NCBI GenBank assembly: GCA_964019415.1
Contig: OZ025868.1
Location: 8,173,649-8,237,648 of the forward strand
Length of the DNA: 64,000 nucleotides
Source: Ianthella basta
Lineage: Eukaryota; Porifera; Demospongiae; Verongiida; Ianthellidae
Direction: 5' to 3'
This document shows positions 199-60,825 of this stretch, piece by piece. Position 1 is the first letter of the stretch; each line of letters starts with the position of its first letter. Made by a program: the position numbers and the translations under genes. The notes beneath the pieces are model-generated. The model made no database searches and had not been told where the DNA came from. It saw only the letters and a program-made list of their open reading frames with translations.

Positions 199-1976
199 TT
201 ATACGTGAAGAGACCTCAACAATTGAAGTGCAGTCACTGGAAACAGTACTTCCAAAAGGTACTGGAAGGATGGAACTACCTCAATGGGGTCACTCTCCGC
301 ATGGAGGAGGATGGGGGCTGGGAGTTGGGCATCAGCATCTGGCAGGACAGCAAGAAGCTTAGTCTTCTTACAGTTGATGGTTAAACCCATGTGCCGACAT
401 TTGGAATCAAGGGACTCAAGGAGGGTGGTGAGGCCATCATAGGAATCAGAAACCAGTGCCATGTCATCGGCGTACTCTAGATCTGACACTGATACTGTAC
501 CTCTGATGTTAGCTTCTTCCTGTTTCCTACCAGGTCTGAATCCATAAGGTAGGACAAGCTCAGACCTACACCTGGGCGATGGTTGTTGATGGCAATCCGA
601 ATCACAGCGTCAAAGAAGAGGTTGAACAAGATTGGTGCCAGCACACAACCCTGTTTGACGCCGACTGATACAGAAAACTGATCAGATATCTTGCCATAAG
701 ATCTTACAGCAGCACATGTGTTCTCATGCAGGGCTTTGACGATGGTAAGAAACTTTGGTGGTAGATGGTAGCAGTGCTGTAGAACTGTCCAAAGTATGCT
801 TCTGTTAACAGAGTCATAAGCCTTACGCAGGTCAACAAAGCAAATGTACAAAGGATGGTGATACTCTCTTGCCTTCTCCATCAACACCCTGGGGGAGAAT
901 AGATGGTCTGTACATCCCCTTCCCTTGCGGAAACCATACTGATTCTCACGCAGGAGGACTTCAGCTCTGGGCTTGATCCGGTTCAGAAGAATACGAGCAA
1001 ACACCTTGCTAGGGATGCTCAAGAGGGCAATGCCCCTGTAGTTGTCACACTCAGATCGACTGCCCTTCTTGTGAAGGGGGATGATGATATGATTGAGCCA
1101 ATCTGAAGGGATGCTCTCACTGCTCCAGATGGAGTTGAACAGTGAGGTGAGCCAACGGATGGTTTCAACTCCTCCCAACTTCAACAACTCAGCTGATATG
1201 CCATCAGCTCCAGGGGCTTAGCCGTCTTGAAGTTGTCCAATAGCTTCTCTGATCTCCTCCTCTGTGATACACTGGGTCAGATCTTCATCATCATGAAATT
1301 TATCTCTGTAGGATGGTGTGGCTGCAATGATGTCTGGCAATACTTCAGGGTCAAATTGACTGACCGAGGTGCAGCAGTTGGACACTTCAGCAAAGTGCTC
1401 TGACCAGCGTTGAAGTTTATCAGTGTCACTGGAGAGAATGGACTTGTCCTTGGCAAGGAGGTAAGAAGAGGATGGCTTCGAAACTTGCTTCTTCAAGAGT
1501 CTCAGCTCCTTGATTATGCTTCCACCACAACCTAACAGCTGGGACATCTTGGCTTTGTTCTCTGCTTCTTCTGCCCTGGCACTCCACCAAGCATTCCTTG
1601 CTTTCTCAGCAGCGACCTTGGTTAACCTCCTAAACCTACGGTACTCAGACAAAGCAAATGAATGTTGTTCATTATCAGAGGAGGACATGCCCCGTAGACG
1701 TAACCATGCTTCCTTTTTATTCCTGGAGAGGTTCTTCACTTCATCGGTGATCCAGTCAACCTCATTTTTCTTTGGTAGGGACGGGAGTTGGCCACAGGCA
1801 TCCTGAAAGACTGCTTTGAAAGCAGTCCACTTATCAGCAACATCAGATGGACTGGGACTTGGACTGTTAGGTGTGGTGTGGTGGCTCTCATAGGCAACGG
1901 CTAAAGAGGTACGGAAGGCGGAGACAATGTCCTTTGGCAGACACTTGGTCTGACGAAGGAGGGTGGTGACACTGGC
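199..1976 (-). pseudogene. LINE reverse transcriptase region, inactivated
   Basis: The linker and reverse transcriptase follow the endonuclease. Visible motifs are GADGIS, then IIIPLHKKGS, NYRGIALLS, QYGFRKGRGCTDH, FVDLRKAYDSV (first catalytic Asp), GVKQGCVLAP and, in another frame, YADDMALV (catalytic Asp pair). A TAA at about 1218-1220 replaces a conserved lysine codon just before APGADG. A frameshift near 480-540 separates the thumb side from the YADD motif. The enzyme is therefore not encoded intact. Confidence 0.85.
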
Positions 1977-1979
1977 GAC

Positions 1980-2733
1980 GCTTTGCTTTGCTTTTGAAAC
2001 GAAGAGTGGATATAACGAGCTCATGATCAGATTGATGATGGACTCCACGGTAAACACGTGTATCCAGGATGGAGTTACGGTACTTGGCACTGACCAGAAT
2101 GTAGTCAATCATGTGGCCAGGATTGGAGCGGTCACCATTTCGGAACCAAGTACACTGGTGCTTGGATTTGTGCTGGTACCAAGTGTTAGTGATGAGGAGC
2201 TTGTTAGTGGCACAGAAATCCAACAATCGTTGCCCGTTTTCATTGACTTGACCCATCCCATGAGGGCCAAGGACTGTATGCCAGGTGTTGGTGTCAGTTC
2301 CCACACGAGCATTGAAATCTCCCAAGATAACGACCATGTCAGTAGGCGGAATGGTAGCCAGTACAGAATGCAAGTCATTGTAAAAATCCTCAGATGGTTG
2401 ATTGGATTCAGATGTTGAGGAGACAGGGCTAGTGGGAGCGTAGACAGCAATTACTGTAGTGTAGCTAAGGTGCGATTTCAGGCGAATATGCATTATTCTA
2501 TCGTTAACAGGTGTGAACACACTTCCAGCTGCTTCCCAGGAAGAGCGAGCGTGAGGAGAAAGGGCAATGGCTACTCCACTGGTGTGTGAAGAGTCAGAGC
2601 CAGAATGAAGAATGGTACATGACTGGATTTGAGTAATTCCATGACCCTGCCAGCGTGACTCAGAAAGAGCCAACAAGTCAATGTTCTTGTCAGTCATTGT
2701 CTCAATGATGTGTTGAAGCTTTAAGCTTTGCAC
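1980..2733 (-). pseudogene. LINE endonuclease domain (exonuclease-endonuclease-phosphatase fold)
   Basis: About 250 residues show the family signatures: LLALSESRW near the start, the GDFNARVG strand motif, a later MIDYILVS segment, and SDHELVIS at the catalytic Asp-His end. In the family this domain nicks target DNA to prime reverse transcription. The frame is open from 2733 to past the SDH motif, then the continuation shifts frame in the 1888-2108 overlap. The first Met at 2733 may not be the original start. Confidence 0.85.
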
Positions 2734-2880
2734 ACTGAGAGAACCCGCAGACTGGACATTCCAACAAGCTAGTCTAGTCTTACCCTTCGCATGAAGAAAG
2801 GTATGAGACTTAAACTTTGCAGTGAACTTGGTTTTAAAGGCTGTTGTTTTCTGAACATCATTTGATGAACATGGAACAAA

Positions 2881-2984
2881 TTAGGACGCCAACCCAACTG
2901 ACCTTTGTCGTGCCATTAGCAGGGCCTTAACCCAGTGCCCAGGGATCACCACATGGAGGTTGCACGACTCGATCCCCCCCCACA

Positions 2985-3040
<56 letters not shown>

Positions 3041-3175
3041 GTATACGTACAGTATTTTAGGTGCAATGTGCATCAGGCCTTCTCTAGTGTCAACAATTTA
3101 TACATTTCACTAGACAAACATGTGCACTAGCTGTGACTGACTGTCAGAGCATATTGGGTTTCTTTTACTTGTCAG
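2881..3175 (+). other. Remnant of monooxygenase intron 8 with (CA)n tract
   Basis: After the LINE edge come a C-rich run and about 25 CA units. The sequence from 3036 to 3175 then matches the end of intron 8 in copy 3 (about 15383-15543), including the polypyrimidine stretch before exon 9. It shows that copy 1 once had exon 8 upstream. The breakpoint coincides with the microsatellite. Confidence 0.7.
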
Positions 3176-4482
<1,307 letters not shown>

Positions 4483-5001
4483 GAAGATCTGTGAGGACTG
4501 TACAATAAATATCACATAATAATTATTAAAGAAGCTGCCATTAAGCTGTAATATCATTGCACATTGACATTAGTTTTATAGGAACCAGTTCTAGAACAGC
4601 TGGCTGTATATAGTGATGAGCAATTATCCCATTAGGAGGTGAGTCACTGCTTCAATTTGTTCTGGTCAGTACGTATACCTGTAAAATAATCTGGGAAACC
4701 CTTCACTCTTTGATAAGACTGTAGCTACCAGCTGACTGTGTGTTTTTGACACTTCAAAGCATGACTTTAAGTAATGACCTACTGTTGTCCGAAGTGTTGT
4801 TAGAGTGTGCTGGATATGTTCTGATGAAAATCAATGGTACGACTGCTTTATTTACACATGGTTACCATGATATATAACTGCTGTATTAATGTTTGTGTTT
4901 GTGAGTACAGTATGAATGTACATGTGTTGTTTGTATATGTGTGCATGCATGTGTGTGTGTGTGTGTGCATGCATATTTGTGTGTGTGTGTGCATGTGTGT
5001 G

Positions 5002-5049
<48 letters not shown>

Positions 5050-5555
5050 TTACATGGTGTGCATGCCTGTGGTGTGTCCTCTCACTCGTATATCAGTACT
5101 CTTTCCTTTCCTTCAATACTATTGTGCAATCCCATCCCCTCGCTCCCCACACCCCAACCTCCATCCCCACTTCCTATACACTTCAGGGCTATTGACCTTG
5201 TGCTTCTCCTTAGGAACGTATTGCAATTATGTGCTGCTATCCTCCTAGTAGCTAGAGATGTCAGCACAGTGTGGACATGCTATATGGCAGTTCATTGTGT
5301 ATAGGACCTAGCTGGTATGAGTGGTGGAGTACCTATACATGCATGTTACATGGCTTCTGGTTTTCCTCCCATAGCTGGACAGATGGCTGGCTACATTCCG
5401 TTCCATCACCTCACATTCTAGCAATGGCATGTAATATATAGTCAGTGGCCGGGTTCCAGTACCAGACCAATATCACTGGACCATTCACATGTTCCATATT
5501 AGATGTGTGTATCTCCTCTCCCTCGTGTGGAAGAACAACAGCATAGGGTTAACAC
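4483..5555. repeat. Intergenic segment, duplicated downstream of copy 3
   Basis: No gene seen. After the AATAAA of copy 1, the segment from about 4637 to 5550 matches 17500-18355 closely, including a GT tract (about 4950-5048) and a CTCACTCGTA-to-CACTTCAGGG stretch. Array units were evidently duplicated with their downstream flank. Confidence 0.8.
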
Positions 5556-5702
5556 AAAATATTCGCGGGGAATATTTTCGCGAATCGTAATCTACCCGCG
5601 AATTTCGCGAAAATTTTCTCCCGCGAAACCAGAGGGCTATACGGTATATACGGCTGCAGCACGCCCTTTCAAGCTACATTTCCTCCCAGCCGTGAACGCG
5701 TT
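5556..5702 (+). promoter_or_regulatory. Putative promoter of copy 2 with CGCGAA-rich repeat
   Basis: Five or more CGCGAA/TTCGCG words occur in about 90 bases (5563-5630), followed by an ACGGTATATACGG segment at about 5641 and then the start codon at 5703. The same arrangement precedes copy 4 (19702-19825). A sequence of the same type in reverse orientation occurs at 59036-59125, where no gene start is evident, so this is a dispersed repeat lying in a promoter position. Promoter activity is inferred from position only. Confidence 0.5.
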
Positions 5703-14090
<8,388 letters not shown>

Positions 14091-22800: not shown

Positions 22801-24296
22801 TTGCTATTTTCAGTAAGAGTCAATTAGTGTAGCTCATTAGATCCACTTTACTGCTGGTGCTGACACCAGATTGGCACAGAGCCTTGCATTTCCGAGCATA
22901 AGATCCCAAGGGTGGAGTGCTCGGGTCTAGATATATATGACAGCTACGTAATGTGCACGTGCATTGCTGTAAACCTGTGTGAACACAGCATGGGAATGCA
23001 TGAATACTGCATTGTTACAGTATGGCATTGTTTAGTTTCAGTTTCAGAAGCTAGCTGTCAACTGAGCTACTGTTGCTGCTTTGTGTTTGGTGAATGCTGT
23101 AACTCAGCTGCACGTGTGATGTATTACTTTATACCTTTCAATACAGCCGTACAACTTCCCAGCTGAAGTGAGCTTCTCATTTGGTGGAGCTGGTAGTCCT
23201 AGGTACCTTGTGAATGAGATGCACTACGACAACCCCAATACAATTTCAGGTATGTATGTAGGAGCTTCATGCCTTACACATGACTGTGCGTATATGTACC
23301 CCCGTCCTAGTCTCATAGCCAGACCACCATACTTCTCAGACTTCGCCCTCCCAAAGACATTCTTTGAGAGGAAGGTGGTCTGACTATGTGAGAATCCACA
23401 CACCCCACACTCATACACACACCCCACACCCATGCACACACCCCAACACATTCAAAAATGGTCACCCATTATGCTATGCACAAGGCATGGCAGAAAGAAA
23501 GGGCAAGAGAGGAGTATTTGATCAAAGTCAGCATCAAACCAGGAACTATGCTCTAATGTGGAGTTTCAGCCACCGAGTTAACCTCACCCAGGTTGCTAAG
23601 TGGCTGTAGTGAGTGTATGAAGCTCTACAGCACAGTATAGCTACCTGTATTGATACTAGTTGCACATATAACATATATTTCCCATGCTTAGCTATTGACT
23701 CGTGGCTTATGGATTAGACTGCCCTTAGCTATAAATATTCAATATGACGTGTATAGTTCCCTTGAATGGATACTACACCACCCACACATGCACAAGTGGA
23801 CACAATGGATCTAGCTTGCATTGCCCGCAGTGATGTATATTGTAGATTTATGCATGTAATATGCCCTTTTGTCATTGTTTATTGCTCATTAAAGTAGGAA
23901 GTAAATAATGCACATTCATAATCTCTAAACTGCATTCACATTGTACATCATACGTATGTTTCCCATACAGGTGTAAGGGACAGGTCTGGCTTTAATCTGA
24001 CCTACCTCTCAACTGGGAGGAGGTACGATGCAGGCGTACTTGAAGTTGGCCACAGTGTCACTCCAGCCATGATTGTACCTGGACGAGCTGTTAGCTACAG
24101 CGTGTTTGGAGATTGTAATACCAATTGCACATCGGTATGCTTCTGGCTTGTTTGCAGTTGCTGACATGCCACATTTGTATAGTCAATCACTATTAGCTTG
24201 TCACCTACATTGTTCTGGCACCATTCCTTTGCAGAACCTTCCCAGTAATGGGATTACTGTGTTTTCTAACACCTTGCATACTCACCTTGCTGGTAT

Positions 24297-28486: not shown

Positions 28487-29170
28487 ATGATCATGTTCAT
28501 GCTCATTTCCGTCAGAGTTTCAATTATTAAATGTGCAGTTCTGGGAAAACATGACTGTATTTTGTACAATATGTCATATATGGCATTGAGCACGTTATAC
28601 CATTGTTAATTTGCTGTGCACTTGCTTAGCTAAGTATAATCAAGCGGCCATGCATGTATATCACCATGCATTCAGGTACGTATAGTTAACGTTAGTAGGA
28701 TGAATCCTTGGCTGGAGCTTGAACACTTTATATATATATACCACACCTTAGAAGCTCTCTATATATAATATCGGATCACTATAGCTAGTACACATGCACA
28801 CGTGTACGTATTATAATAATTATTATGCAAACATTCACTGCTGCATTAGCTACAGTAGTACTATAGTAGTGCAGTGCTGTTCACATGCGTAGCTACGTAT
28901 ACTTGTGTGATTAATGACACATACACGTGTATACATGCATATCAGGCCTAAGAGAGGCAGGAGGTCCTAACACACGTACACACGTACACACACACGCACA
29001 CACACGCGCACACACACGCATACACGCGCGCGCGCGCGTGCACACGTACTCACACGCATGCACGCACACAAATTGTAGTCTCGTCCCCAGCCCACTTCCG
29101 GCCGCCATTTTGCAATGGCCCCTTGCAAAATGGCGGCCGGAAGTGGGCTGGGGACGAGACTACTGGCGAC

Positions 29171-29932
29171 CAGGGGGGGGTCGGACAAGGTCCTGGGATT
29201 GCGCAATACAAGCACCTCAATAATTGCATTCCTGACATTCCAATCGCGTCTCCATATGTTAGCTGACTGTGCTCCAAGGTCGAATGTGCATACCCTGAGC
29301 CATGGCAGGGCCTTGTACTGCATTCGCGCCCCTGGTATGACCCGTACGTACGTAGCCAAGGAGCCATACGGTGGATTGGGCTTAATTCTCTGACCGCTTT
29401 CACGATATAGTTTTGCAAGTTATCGCAGCGTTTCTTGAGGATTGCCAGCACACTTAAGCCATTTCTAGCATCCCTGCTATCGAATGTGACAAATCGTGTA
29501 CAGAACTAAGACGATTGAAAGGACGTGGCTGCCGATTGCACTTCCATTGCAGAAGCAGTCAACCTATCAGTCTTGCAGTCCTGAAGTGATCAATGAGGAC
29601 TCGCTACCAGCTTCTAAGGAGTCACTTCCACAGGAGCCCTTGCTCAGTACTCCAGATTAGGCTCCATCTGCCTCGTAGCCCGCATCAGCGAACACTCGTA
29701 CACCGGTGTTGGAAAATGCTCGCAAAACCTACCTAGATGCTGGGGAAGGGCGGGGAAGGGTCCATTTTCTAATAGCCCTTGTCCAACTGTGTGCTCAGAA
29801 GCAAAGAAACAAGCGATGCGACGTGTTTCTCGAAATATGTCTGCTCTTAGCTAGTATAGGTATAATACACAATAAAGAGCAGCTGCGTCGGCCATTTTGC
29901 GGACACACGTGACCTTGACCGACCCCCCCCTG
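29171..29932. mobile_element. Nested non-autonomous TIR element, CAGGGGGGGG ends
   Basis: The ends are CAGGGGGGGGTCGG(A/T)CAAGG inverted, about 22 bases with one mismatch. ACTGGCGAC occurs on both sides (29162-29170, 29933-29941), a 9-bp duplication. Removing the element rejoins CTGGCGACTATGG, which matches the reverse complement of the other end of the host transposon (CCATAGTCGCCAG near 30592). No intact transposase is seen in 762 bp. Confidence 0.85.
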
Positions 29933-30098
29933 ACTGGCGACTATGGTCGACTTTCTTGGGCCCGGAAGTCCATTCCCAGCAGGAATGTGTGCTGGCCAAT
30001 CAGATTACACAACAGCTCATTAGTGGCATGTTATGCATAACATTCACACCTCTGGCGTTCACACCTACCTAGCAGCATAGACCTATGCTAGCAGCGAG

Positions 30099-30431
30099 AT
30101 GGCAGCTTCGATGGGAGAAGTGAGCTTCCCAAGATTGGGCGCAAGGCTACCTTCGGTCGCAGTGAACAGTGTTATTCTGGAAGCATACGTAATACCCGGC
30201 TACGAGAAGCCCACAGATCAGGAAGAGGCGATTTTGGACTTCTTAAAGGGACGGGACGTCTTCGTTTTCCTCCCAACAGGGGCGGGCAAGTCTCTCTGCT
30301 TCGCCACTCTTCCCTCCGCCTTGCTGCCTTTCTCCAGCTTGGAAAAGCACGTTCGACACACGTACTGGTTACTACTTTCAGTTTCTGCAAGTCGAAGCTC
30401 GATCGTACACTTGGCAAAGGCGAGAACCTAA
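30099..30431 (+). pseudogene. RecQ-like DNA helicase N-terminal fragment
   Basis: The ORF starts MAASMGEVSF and contains PTDQEEAILDFLKGRDVFVF followed by LPTGAGKSLCF. This is the arrangement of a RecQ-family Q-motif region plus Walker A (GxGKS) ATP-binding loop. The sequence diverges right after the Walker A strand and ends 110 codons in, so motifs Ia-VI are missing. It lies inside the TIR transposon, so it is probably the 5' end of that element's own gene or of a captured helicase. Confidence 0.7.
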
Positions 30432-30734
30432 GGGCTACTCTCTATTCGCCTGCAAAAAGAAGGATTTGCCACGCTTCAGGAACACACAGCACAGCGTGGC
30501 ACTTCCATCTTGCCCGTACAAATTTCACACCTCGCTGTTCCCACCAGTGTTACGTAATCAGAACTGGCTTCCAGGCCCAAGAAAGTCCACCATAGTCGCC
30601 AGACCACCTTTTCGGGCCATTGCAAAATGGCGGCCGGAAGTGGGCTGGGGACGAGACTAAGTCGCCAGACCACCTTTTCGGGCCATTGCAAAATGGCGGC
30701 CAGAAGTGGGCTGGGGACGAGACTACACAAATTG

Positions 30735-56976: not shown

Positions 56977-57789
56977 AGTTTAACTGAACATGCACCTTCA
57001 TGCCTGTCAGACGACCTCAGACACATGTGACCACACTAGCTCTTTGATTCACCTTAGGCCATTTGCTTAGTCACACTTAGGTAGACGTACGCACTATACA
57101 TTGCAGTCATCTTTAGCTTTACACATTTTCATTGCTGTCATCTTTGGCTTTAGGCATTATTCATTGCTGTCATCTTTGGCATTATAGTTATAGACATTAT
57201 GCATTGCTGTCATCTTTAGCATTTTGTTCATTTATAGTAAAGAGTAGAAATGTTAACAGCTGTCAATGCTTCTATATACTATGCCACATTGCAAGCAAAC
57301 TGCAGTTAGTTTACTAACTTGTCTATATATAAGTCTTAGTTATTATGACTGCTCTCTTCATGCACAAGTATACAGTAATGTGGCAGTATTAAAAATGTAT
57401 GGAAATGGTAGACCTTAAAAATCAATATTCATTTTGCTGCTGCTGCACAAAACTATGCATATAACACAATATTCAATGTCCTGCTTTTATACTACTTTAC
57501 AGTGGCCTGGATGGGTGTTGCTTGAAACAGCCATAATCTTACCTTTTCCTTCACAAATACGGAGAAATGTGTAAAACAGTGCTAGCCACTATAAAGGCAT
57601 AGTGTCATGGGCAGACCCACGTGCAACACTGCCCCATGCACATTTGGGCAGCAGGATGCACATGAGTCTGGGTACGAGACTACCAGGGTGCACATCTCCC
57701 AGCCTGCTAGACCTTGCTAGCTATGTGTTAGTTACTTGCAACGTACAGCCCACTCTGCACCTTCTTACATTCAGGTGTATATGTAATAT

Positions 57790-60509: not shown

Positions 60510-60591
60510 CTGCAGCGCCGAAGTCAGAAACAATGGAGCTCCGTGCCTCTGCAAAGGTTGTTACAACGCGGTAATGCGGCTAAAGAGTACA

Positions 60592-60825
60592 CTACCAACA
60601 CAGAAGGTATTGCCGAACATTCCTCCATAGTACTCGCAACAATGCGGCGAGCACTCGGATATGATGGACTTCCCATGTCCAGTGACTCGGCAGTAGGCTC
60701 TCGAACGTATCCTTACGGCTGATGACGCTCTTCAAGGCTTCCTTCTGACGTCTCGTTAGGACCGACATTGACTTGCGCAGTGCACTCAAAGCGAATGATA
60801 CAGCCCCTTCGAAGGACTCCTCCAT
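60592..60825 (-). pseudogene. RecQ-like helicase N-terminal fragment inside the transposon
   Basis: The minus-strand ORF starts MEESFEGAVSFALSALRKSM and contains LTRRQKEALKSVISRKDTF. This fits the RecQ Q-motif region (an Arg/Lys-Gln-Lys/Glu-Glu-Ala block, then GKD before the Walker A loop), but the Walker A loop itself is lost. The match is weaker than for 30099-30431. Confidence 0.5.

Follow-up and report, generated by a model that had tools for sequence, protein, structure and literature searches.

A composite transposon in the window

The DNA analysed here, referred to as the window, is a stretch of 64,000 nucleotides from the sponge Ianthella basta. It contains a 1,650-bp element at positions 29076 to 30725, which has inverted ends and is flanked by a duplication (Table 1). 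The outer ends (29076–29121 and 30680–30725) are inverted repeats with one mismatch (48 nt, 98%), while the left end and the inner right end (30614–30659) match perfectly over 46 bp. The termini read 5'-TA...TA-3', and the 9 bp of CACAAATTG are identical on both flanks. A first-pass annotation of the window had described a transposon relic with terminal inverted repeats, a perfect 9-bp duplication and the start of a RecQ-type helicase gene; our comparisons recovered the ends, the duplication and a helicase frame running through the Walker A motif. In the 209-Mb genome, the 13-base terminus occurred 202 + 199 times and the 26-base terminus 87 + 93 times, compared to 2 + 2 and 0 + 0 occurrences of the reversed controls.

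Table 1. Features of the element in the window, with positions counted from the first base of the window.
Feature	Position	Strand	Basis
Left target-site duplication CACAAATTG	29067..29075	.	sequence read
Left terminal inverted repeat, of which 46 bp remain, TAGTCTCGTCCCC...	29076..29121	+	46 bp identical to both L069 ends
Extra inverted end, directly followed by the recurrent insertion spot CTGGCGAC(T)	29120..29162	-	repeat comparison
Nested transposon B, 762 bp, CAGGGGGGGG...CCCCCCCCTG	29171..29932	.	own 9-bp duplication
First helicase exon remnant, ~71 codons, through Walker A GAGKS	30099..30312	+	
Internal-deletion junction; 5,089 bp of the L069 long form absent	30312..30313	.	matches to 1–459 and 5549–5893
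Presumed first exon remnant of the opposite, DUF6589-bearing gene	30313..30573	-	
Inner right terminal inverted repeat, same length as in L069 (86 bp)	30574..30659	-	
Second right-end copy, 66-bp tandem, junction at CTGGCGACT	30660..30725	-	direct repeat, 98%
Right target-site duplication CACAAATTG	30726..30734	.	sequence read

The window copy is a composite, consisting of a deletion-derived short element, a nested 762-bp transposon and doubled ends. The nested transposon B is flanked by its own 9-bp duplication, ACTGGCGAC, at 29162–29170 and 29933–29941, and the right end is present as a tandem pair of 66 bp each (30594–30659 and 30660–30725). The extra inverted end at 29120–29162 may represent the right end of a further nested copy that was almost wholly deleted. 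The first-pass annotation had described neither the nested transposon nor the extra end or the tandem repeat. Elsewhere in the window, a lone end-like sequence, TAGTCTCGTACCCAGAC, was found on the minus strand at 57666–57682 with one mismatch to the A-type end pattern searched, and weaker end-like sequences with three mismatches each lie at 23308 and 38302.

Long members contain two genes

The first-pass annotation had suggested looking for long members with a full RecQ helicase and a second conserved reading frame, and we indeed found such members. One of them, L069 (C13:7457564-7463456), is 5,893 bp long and flanked by the 9-bp duplication CTCCATGAT; its ends show no mismatches over the first 81 bp as determined by script, or 86 bp as judged by eye. 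Its two genes are convergent, with the DEAD and Helicase_C exons on one strand and DUF6589 on the other (Pfam E-values of 1.9e-19 for DEAD, 4.6e-17 for Helicase_C, and 7.4e-31 and 2.6e-9 for DUF6589). Two diverged relatives contain the same two genes: L073 (6,517 bp, duplication GTGAAAGAC) with terminal inverted repeats of 130 bp at 99% identity, and L074 (7,295 bp, duplication TTTTACCTA), in which both genes are on one strand. For another L069-family copy, located on C18, the duplication TGTTGTTAG was read from the ends alone. Additional helicase-DUF6589 pairs, L071, L072, L075, L084, L085 and L086, were identified as gene pairs rather than from full boundaries. L070 (C14:2048400-2056200) was dropped as a candidate long member, because the locus contains a short form of 757 bp whose duplication matches at eight of nine bases, and the left end of the C22 copy (L076) was absent from its predicted position, so that we claim no duplication for it. 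A hairpin-like short insert with the ends TAGCCTCGTACCCAG was observed in L071 near 5210–5330 and may be a miniature form from a related family.

The helicase frame of L072 is unbroken over 588 aa, and its best relative of solved structure is 1oyw (E 4.4e-47), which we take to be E. coli RecQ. RecQ_Zn_bind was detected in L069 and L072 below the cut-off. An intron follows the DEAH box; L069, L073, L074, L075 and L084 share the position of its donor, and its acceptor was read in L069, L073 and L075. The L072 helicase does not contain this intron. A Mutator-like (MULE) identity was considered in view of the 9-bp duplication. Among the 14 long-form frames scanned, the only families above the cut-off were DUF6589, DEAD, Helicase_C and ResIII, and none contained a MULE-type transposase domain.

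The short form originated by internal deletion

The open reading frame at 30099–30431 of the window (110 aa) contains QEEAILDFLKGRDVFVFLPTGAGKS and scores 26.3 bits against Pfam DEAD, just above the cut-off of 26. Positions 29934–30313 of the window match 58–459 of the L069 element with 88.6% identity, and positions 30312–30659 match 5549–5893 with 94.0%. Because the first match stops at the deletion junction, the helicase portion ends at about codon 71. The frame is therefore helicase for these first codons, as had been annotated, but its last 39 codons lie past the junction, where they run antisense to what is presumably exon 1 of the second gene. The same structure is present in a clean short form of 783 bp (C38:322-1104, duplication ATAAACTAT), which consists of L069 1–459 (90.0%) joined to 5549–5893 (94.5%) and thus retains the starts of both genes. 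At least 33 of 152 matches to the 110-aa frame, counted by eye among those listed and including that of the window itself, are at least 90% identical over at least 102 residues. The outcome that the annotation had named as speaking against it, an ordinary transposase with the helicase fragment confined to one copy, was not what we observed. Outside the element, another RecQ-like helicase fragment, which is frameshifted, lies on the minus strand of the window at 60567–60759; the L071 helicase aligns with it in two segments of 40% and 58% identity.

The helicase and DUF6589 genes are linked and their trees agree

A search for DUF6589 yielded 58 genome matches, which fall into 40 clusters. Using the L072 helicase as the query and scoring 74 of 830 candidate matches, which renders the count incomplete, we found a RecQ-like match at a distance of up to 8 kb in at least 27 of the 40 clusters, whereas random uniform placement gave at most three linked clusters in 2000 trials. 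The 27 do not count as independent observations, since several belong to the same family. Of the 27 clusters, 21 are convergent and six are on the same strand, three with the helicase and three with DUF6589 upstream. No RecQ-like match within 8 kb was found for the other 13 clusters among the 74 of 830 candidates scored, and two of these (C18:4003956 and C1:8784817) gave weaker helicase matches in the search with the 110-aa frame.

Pairwise distances of the two proteins over nine loci are correlated (r 0.71 over 36 pairs, permutation p 0.0008), and FastTree trees built from rows in which each locus was matched to one query, rather than from free alignments, show identical unrooted topologies for the helicase and DUF6589 if the outgroup L082 is set aside, with low supports of 0.54 and 0.58 in the helicase tree and 0.42 in the DUF6589 tree. 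Across these nine loci of a single genome, the two proteins have thus diverged in parallel. L082, the sole outgroup helicase, was placed beside L072 with a support of 0.69, so that the element helicases may or may not have a single origin. In 30 comparisons among six loci, pS was 0.74–0.89, which indicates saturation, and pN was 0.34–0.51, so the proteins are conserved despite saturated synonymous sites.

Viewed by itself, the short form looks like an ordinary transposon that has captured the start of a host helicase gene, with the DUF6589 loci as chance neighbours. Transposons do capture gene fragments, and the annotation had also considered such a capture by the window element. We regard this explanation as highly improbable, since the linkage far exceeds chance, the trees of both proteins share their topology, L069, L073 and L074 each contain both genes, enclosed by matching ends and 9-bp duplications, and the junction of the short form is a deletion relative to L069. 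The linkage, the common topology and the deletion origin rather indicate that the helicase is an old, co-inherited part of the element that was not captured by the window copy, although a far older capture may lie at the root of the group as a whole. Two long RecQ-like helicase frames that resemble each other were also observed at L082 (C11:2786800-2788500) and L083 (C21:3030500-3031700), on contigs without a DUF6589 match; L082 has a weak B-box match. They possibly belong to another mobile element.

The DUF6589 protein as a candidate transposase

In the DUF6589 protein, the motif GDNxDK shows no variation among the five loci compared, and GDxxT, DWH, DAxxEGDG and EHxNxxxK are invariant in nine loci; GDxxT reads GDQLT in L069, L071 and L072. 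The protein is likely the transposase, with the D in GDNxDK, the D in GDxxT and the E in EHxNxxxK selected by us as candidate catalytic residues, the acidic residues of DAxxEGDG being equally invariant. The order D, D, E and the hydrophobic stretches that precede the first two candidate residues, as judged by eye, would suit a DDD/E transposase. This would tie a family of "unknown function" to DNA transposition. Sequence comparison of DUF6589 with solved structures gave six matches up to E 1, the best at E 0.023 and none of them meaningful, and the first exon of the L071 DUF6589 gene showed a weak match to the zf-AD zinc finger (E 0.02, below the cut-off). No DUF6589 relatives were confirmed in collections of viral contigs and genome contigs. 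DUF6589 was not mentioned in the literature searched, in which a text search for PF20231 matched a nanophotonics paper.

Target-site duplications and relation to AcademH

Combining each left end in the loci sampled with all right ends that follow it within 8 kb, we obtained 61 facing end pairs, 38 of which match at eight or more of nine flanking bases, three of the 38 being one C4 locus repeated; shuffled pairing gave 313 matches in 20000. The longest exact duplication was 9 bp in 36 of the 61 pairs. The duplications tend to start with G and end with C, as seen in 36 of 72 end positions (raw counts from 36 A duplications, namely the 38 minus two C4 repeats and two imperfect ones, plus two further ones read at ends).

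AcademH is said to be a lineage of the Academ superfamily, reportedly in work by Kojima (2020, Mob DNA 11:15). AcademX, the other Academ lineage named beside it, has an XPG-type nuclease, and XPG_I gave only three genome matches, none of them near a DUF6589 match and too few to bear on whether DUF6589 is an Academ transposase. As summarised in a passage of PMC10045372, AcademH encodes a helicase and generates 9- or 10-bp duplications, whereas AcademX encodes a nuclease and generates duplications of 3 or 4 bp. The families described here resemble the former and differ from the latter: they encode a helicase, which is of the RecQ family, show exact 9-bp duplications and possess terminal inverted repeats (86 bp in L069); their gene order is variable. 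AcademH has been reported from animals and fungi, according to a title in the reference lists of PMC10799480 and PMC10045372, and an excerpt of PMC10799480 assigns fungal DEAD, Helicase_C, PIF1 and Helitron_like_N domains to AcademH, KolobokH or Helitron. Excerpts from PMC10294476, PMC9783078 and PMC8290104 contained nothing decisive for the comparison. The annotation had considered an undescribed element type and knew of none built around such a helicase, but the AcademH description in the passage of PMC10045372 already covers helicase-encoding elements.

KolobokH, like the families here, encodes a RecQ helicase, and in a Kolobok from a rhodophyte the helicase gene is located on the complementary strand (both in a section of PMC9587614). 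The same section gives TTAA duplications and 5'-RR...YY-3' termini for Kolobok and mentions KolobokH from fungi only. Because the 38 duplications are varied 9-bp sequences and not TTAA, and the termini are TA and not RR, we rejected a Kolobok identity, and membership of KolobokH appears extremely improbable.

Compared with the published description of AcademH, the families here are probably members of it on the basis of the helicase and the 9-bp duplication. They might instead form an undescribed superfamily apart from Academ, characterised by a DUF6589 transposase, a co-inherited RecQ partner and repeated insertion into its own ends at GTCTGGCGACT, with only the helicase and the duplication length in common with AcademH. 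The lack of DUF6589 in the literature searched and the comparison with AcademH by description only would agree with this, but AcademH shows the same pair of traits (PMC10045372, same passage) and has been reported from animals, as judged from the cited title, and we consider a separate superfamily unlikely. With good confidence, we thus interpret the window element as a non-autonomous relic that arose by internal deletion within a two-gene family with terminal inverted repeats; this family encodes a RecQ helicase and a DUF6589 protein and most likely belongs to AcademH.

Full-length members encode a superfamily-2 RecQ-family helicase and a DUF6589 protein, most often convergently, an arrangement which places both gene starts near the inverted ends. 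A deletion joining position 459 to 5549 generated the 783-bp form with both 86-bp ends and the first pieces of the genes, and this form then multiplied. In the mechanism that we propose, the DUF6589 protein would cut and insert with a 9-bp stagger, the RecQ helicase may serve as an accessory factor for unwinding or for processing ends or gaps, and the short copies may be mobilised in trans because they have kept their ends. Why some cut-and-paste transposons carry a helicase would thereby become an assayable question.

Repeated insertion at a subterminal spot

A- and B-type elements were inserted more than once into the subterminal spot GTCTGGCGACT of A-type elements, resulting in doubled ends. 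Such sites were observed in the window (29162–29170 and 30660–30668), at C18:6338950-6345000 (L078, L079) and at C5:266705-266813 (spot GTCTGGCAC). The C18 site is in a near twin of the window copy (96% over its positions 42–1584), which contains another A-type element in the same subterminal stretch, with the duplication GGTCTGGCG and its far end about 5.9 kb off. The B copy of this twin is flanked by TCTGGCGAC if the right end is read as ...TTG (L010). Because the two B duplications of the window and C18 differ, the B copies would represent separate insertions at one spot, GGTCTGGCGACT. Transposon B itself is a non-autonomous element of about 760 bp with the ends CAGGGGGGGTCGG and 9-bp duplications in many copies; 20 of these duplications were picked by eye, with some rows repeating copies seen in overlapping loci. 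At least about four dozen of its 107 matches, as counted by eye, cover most of the element with 90–98% identity.
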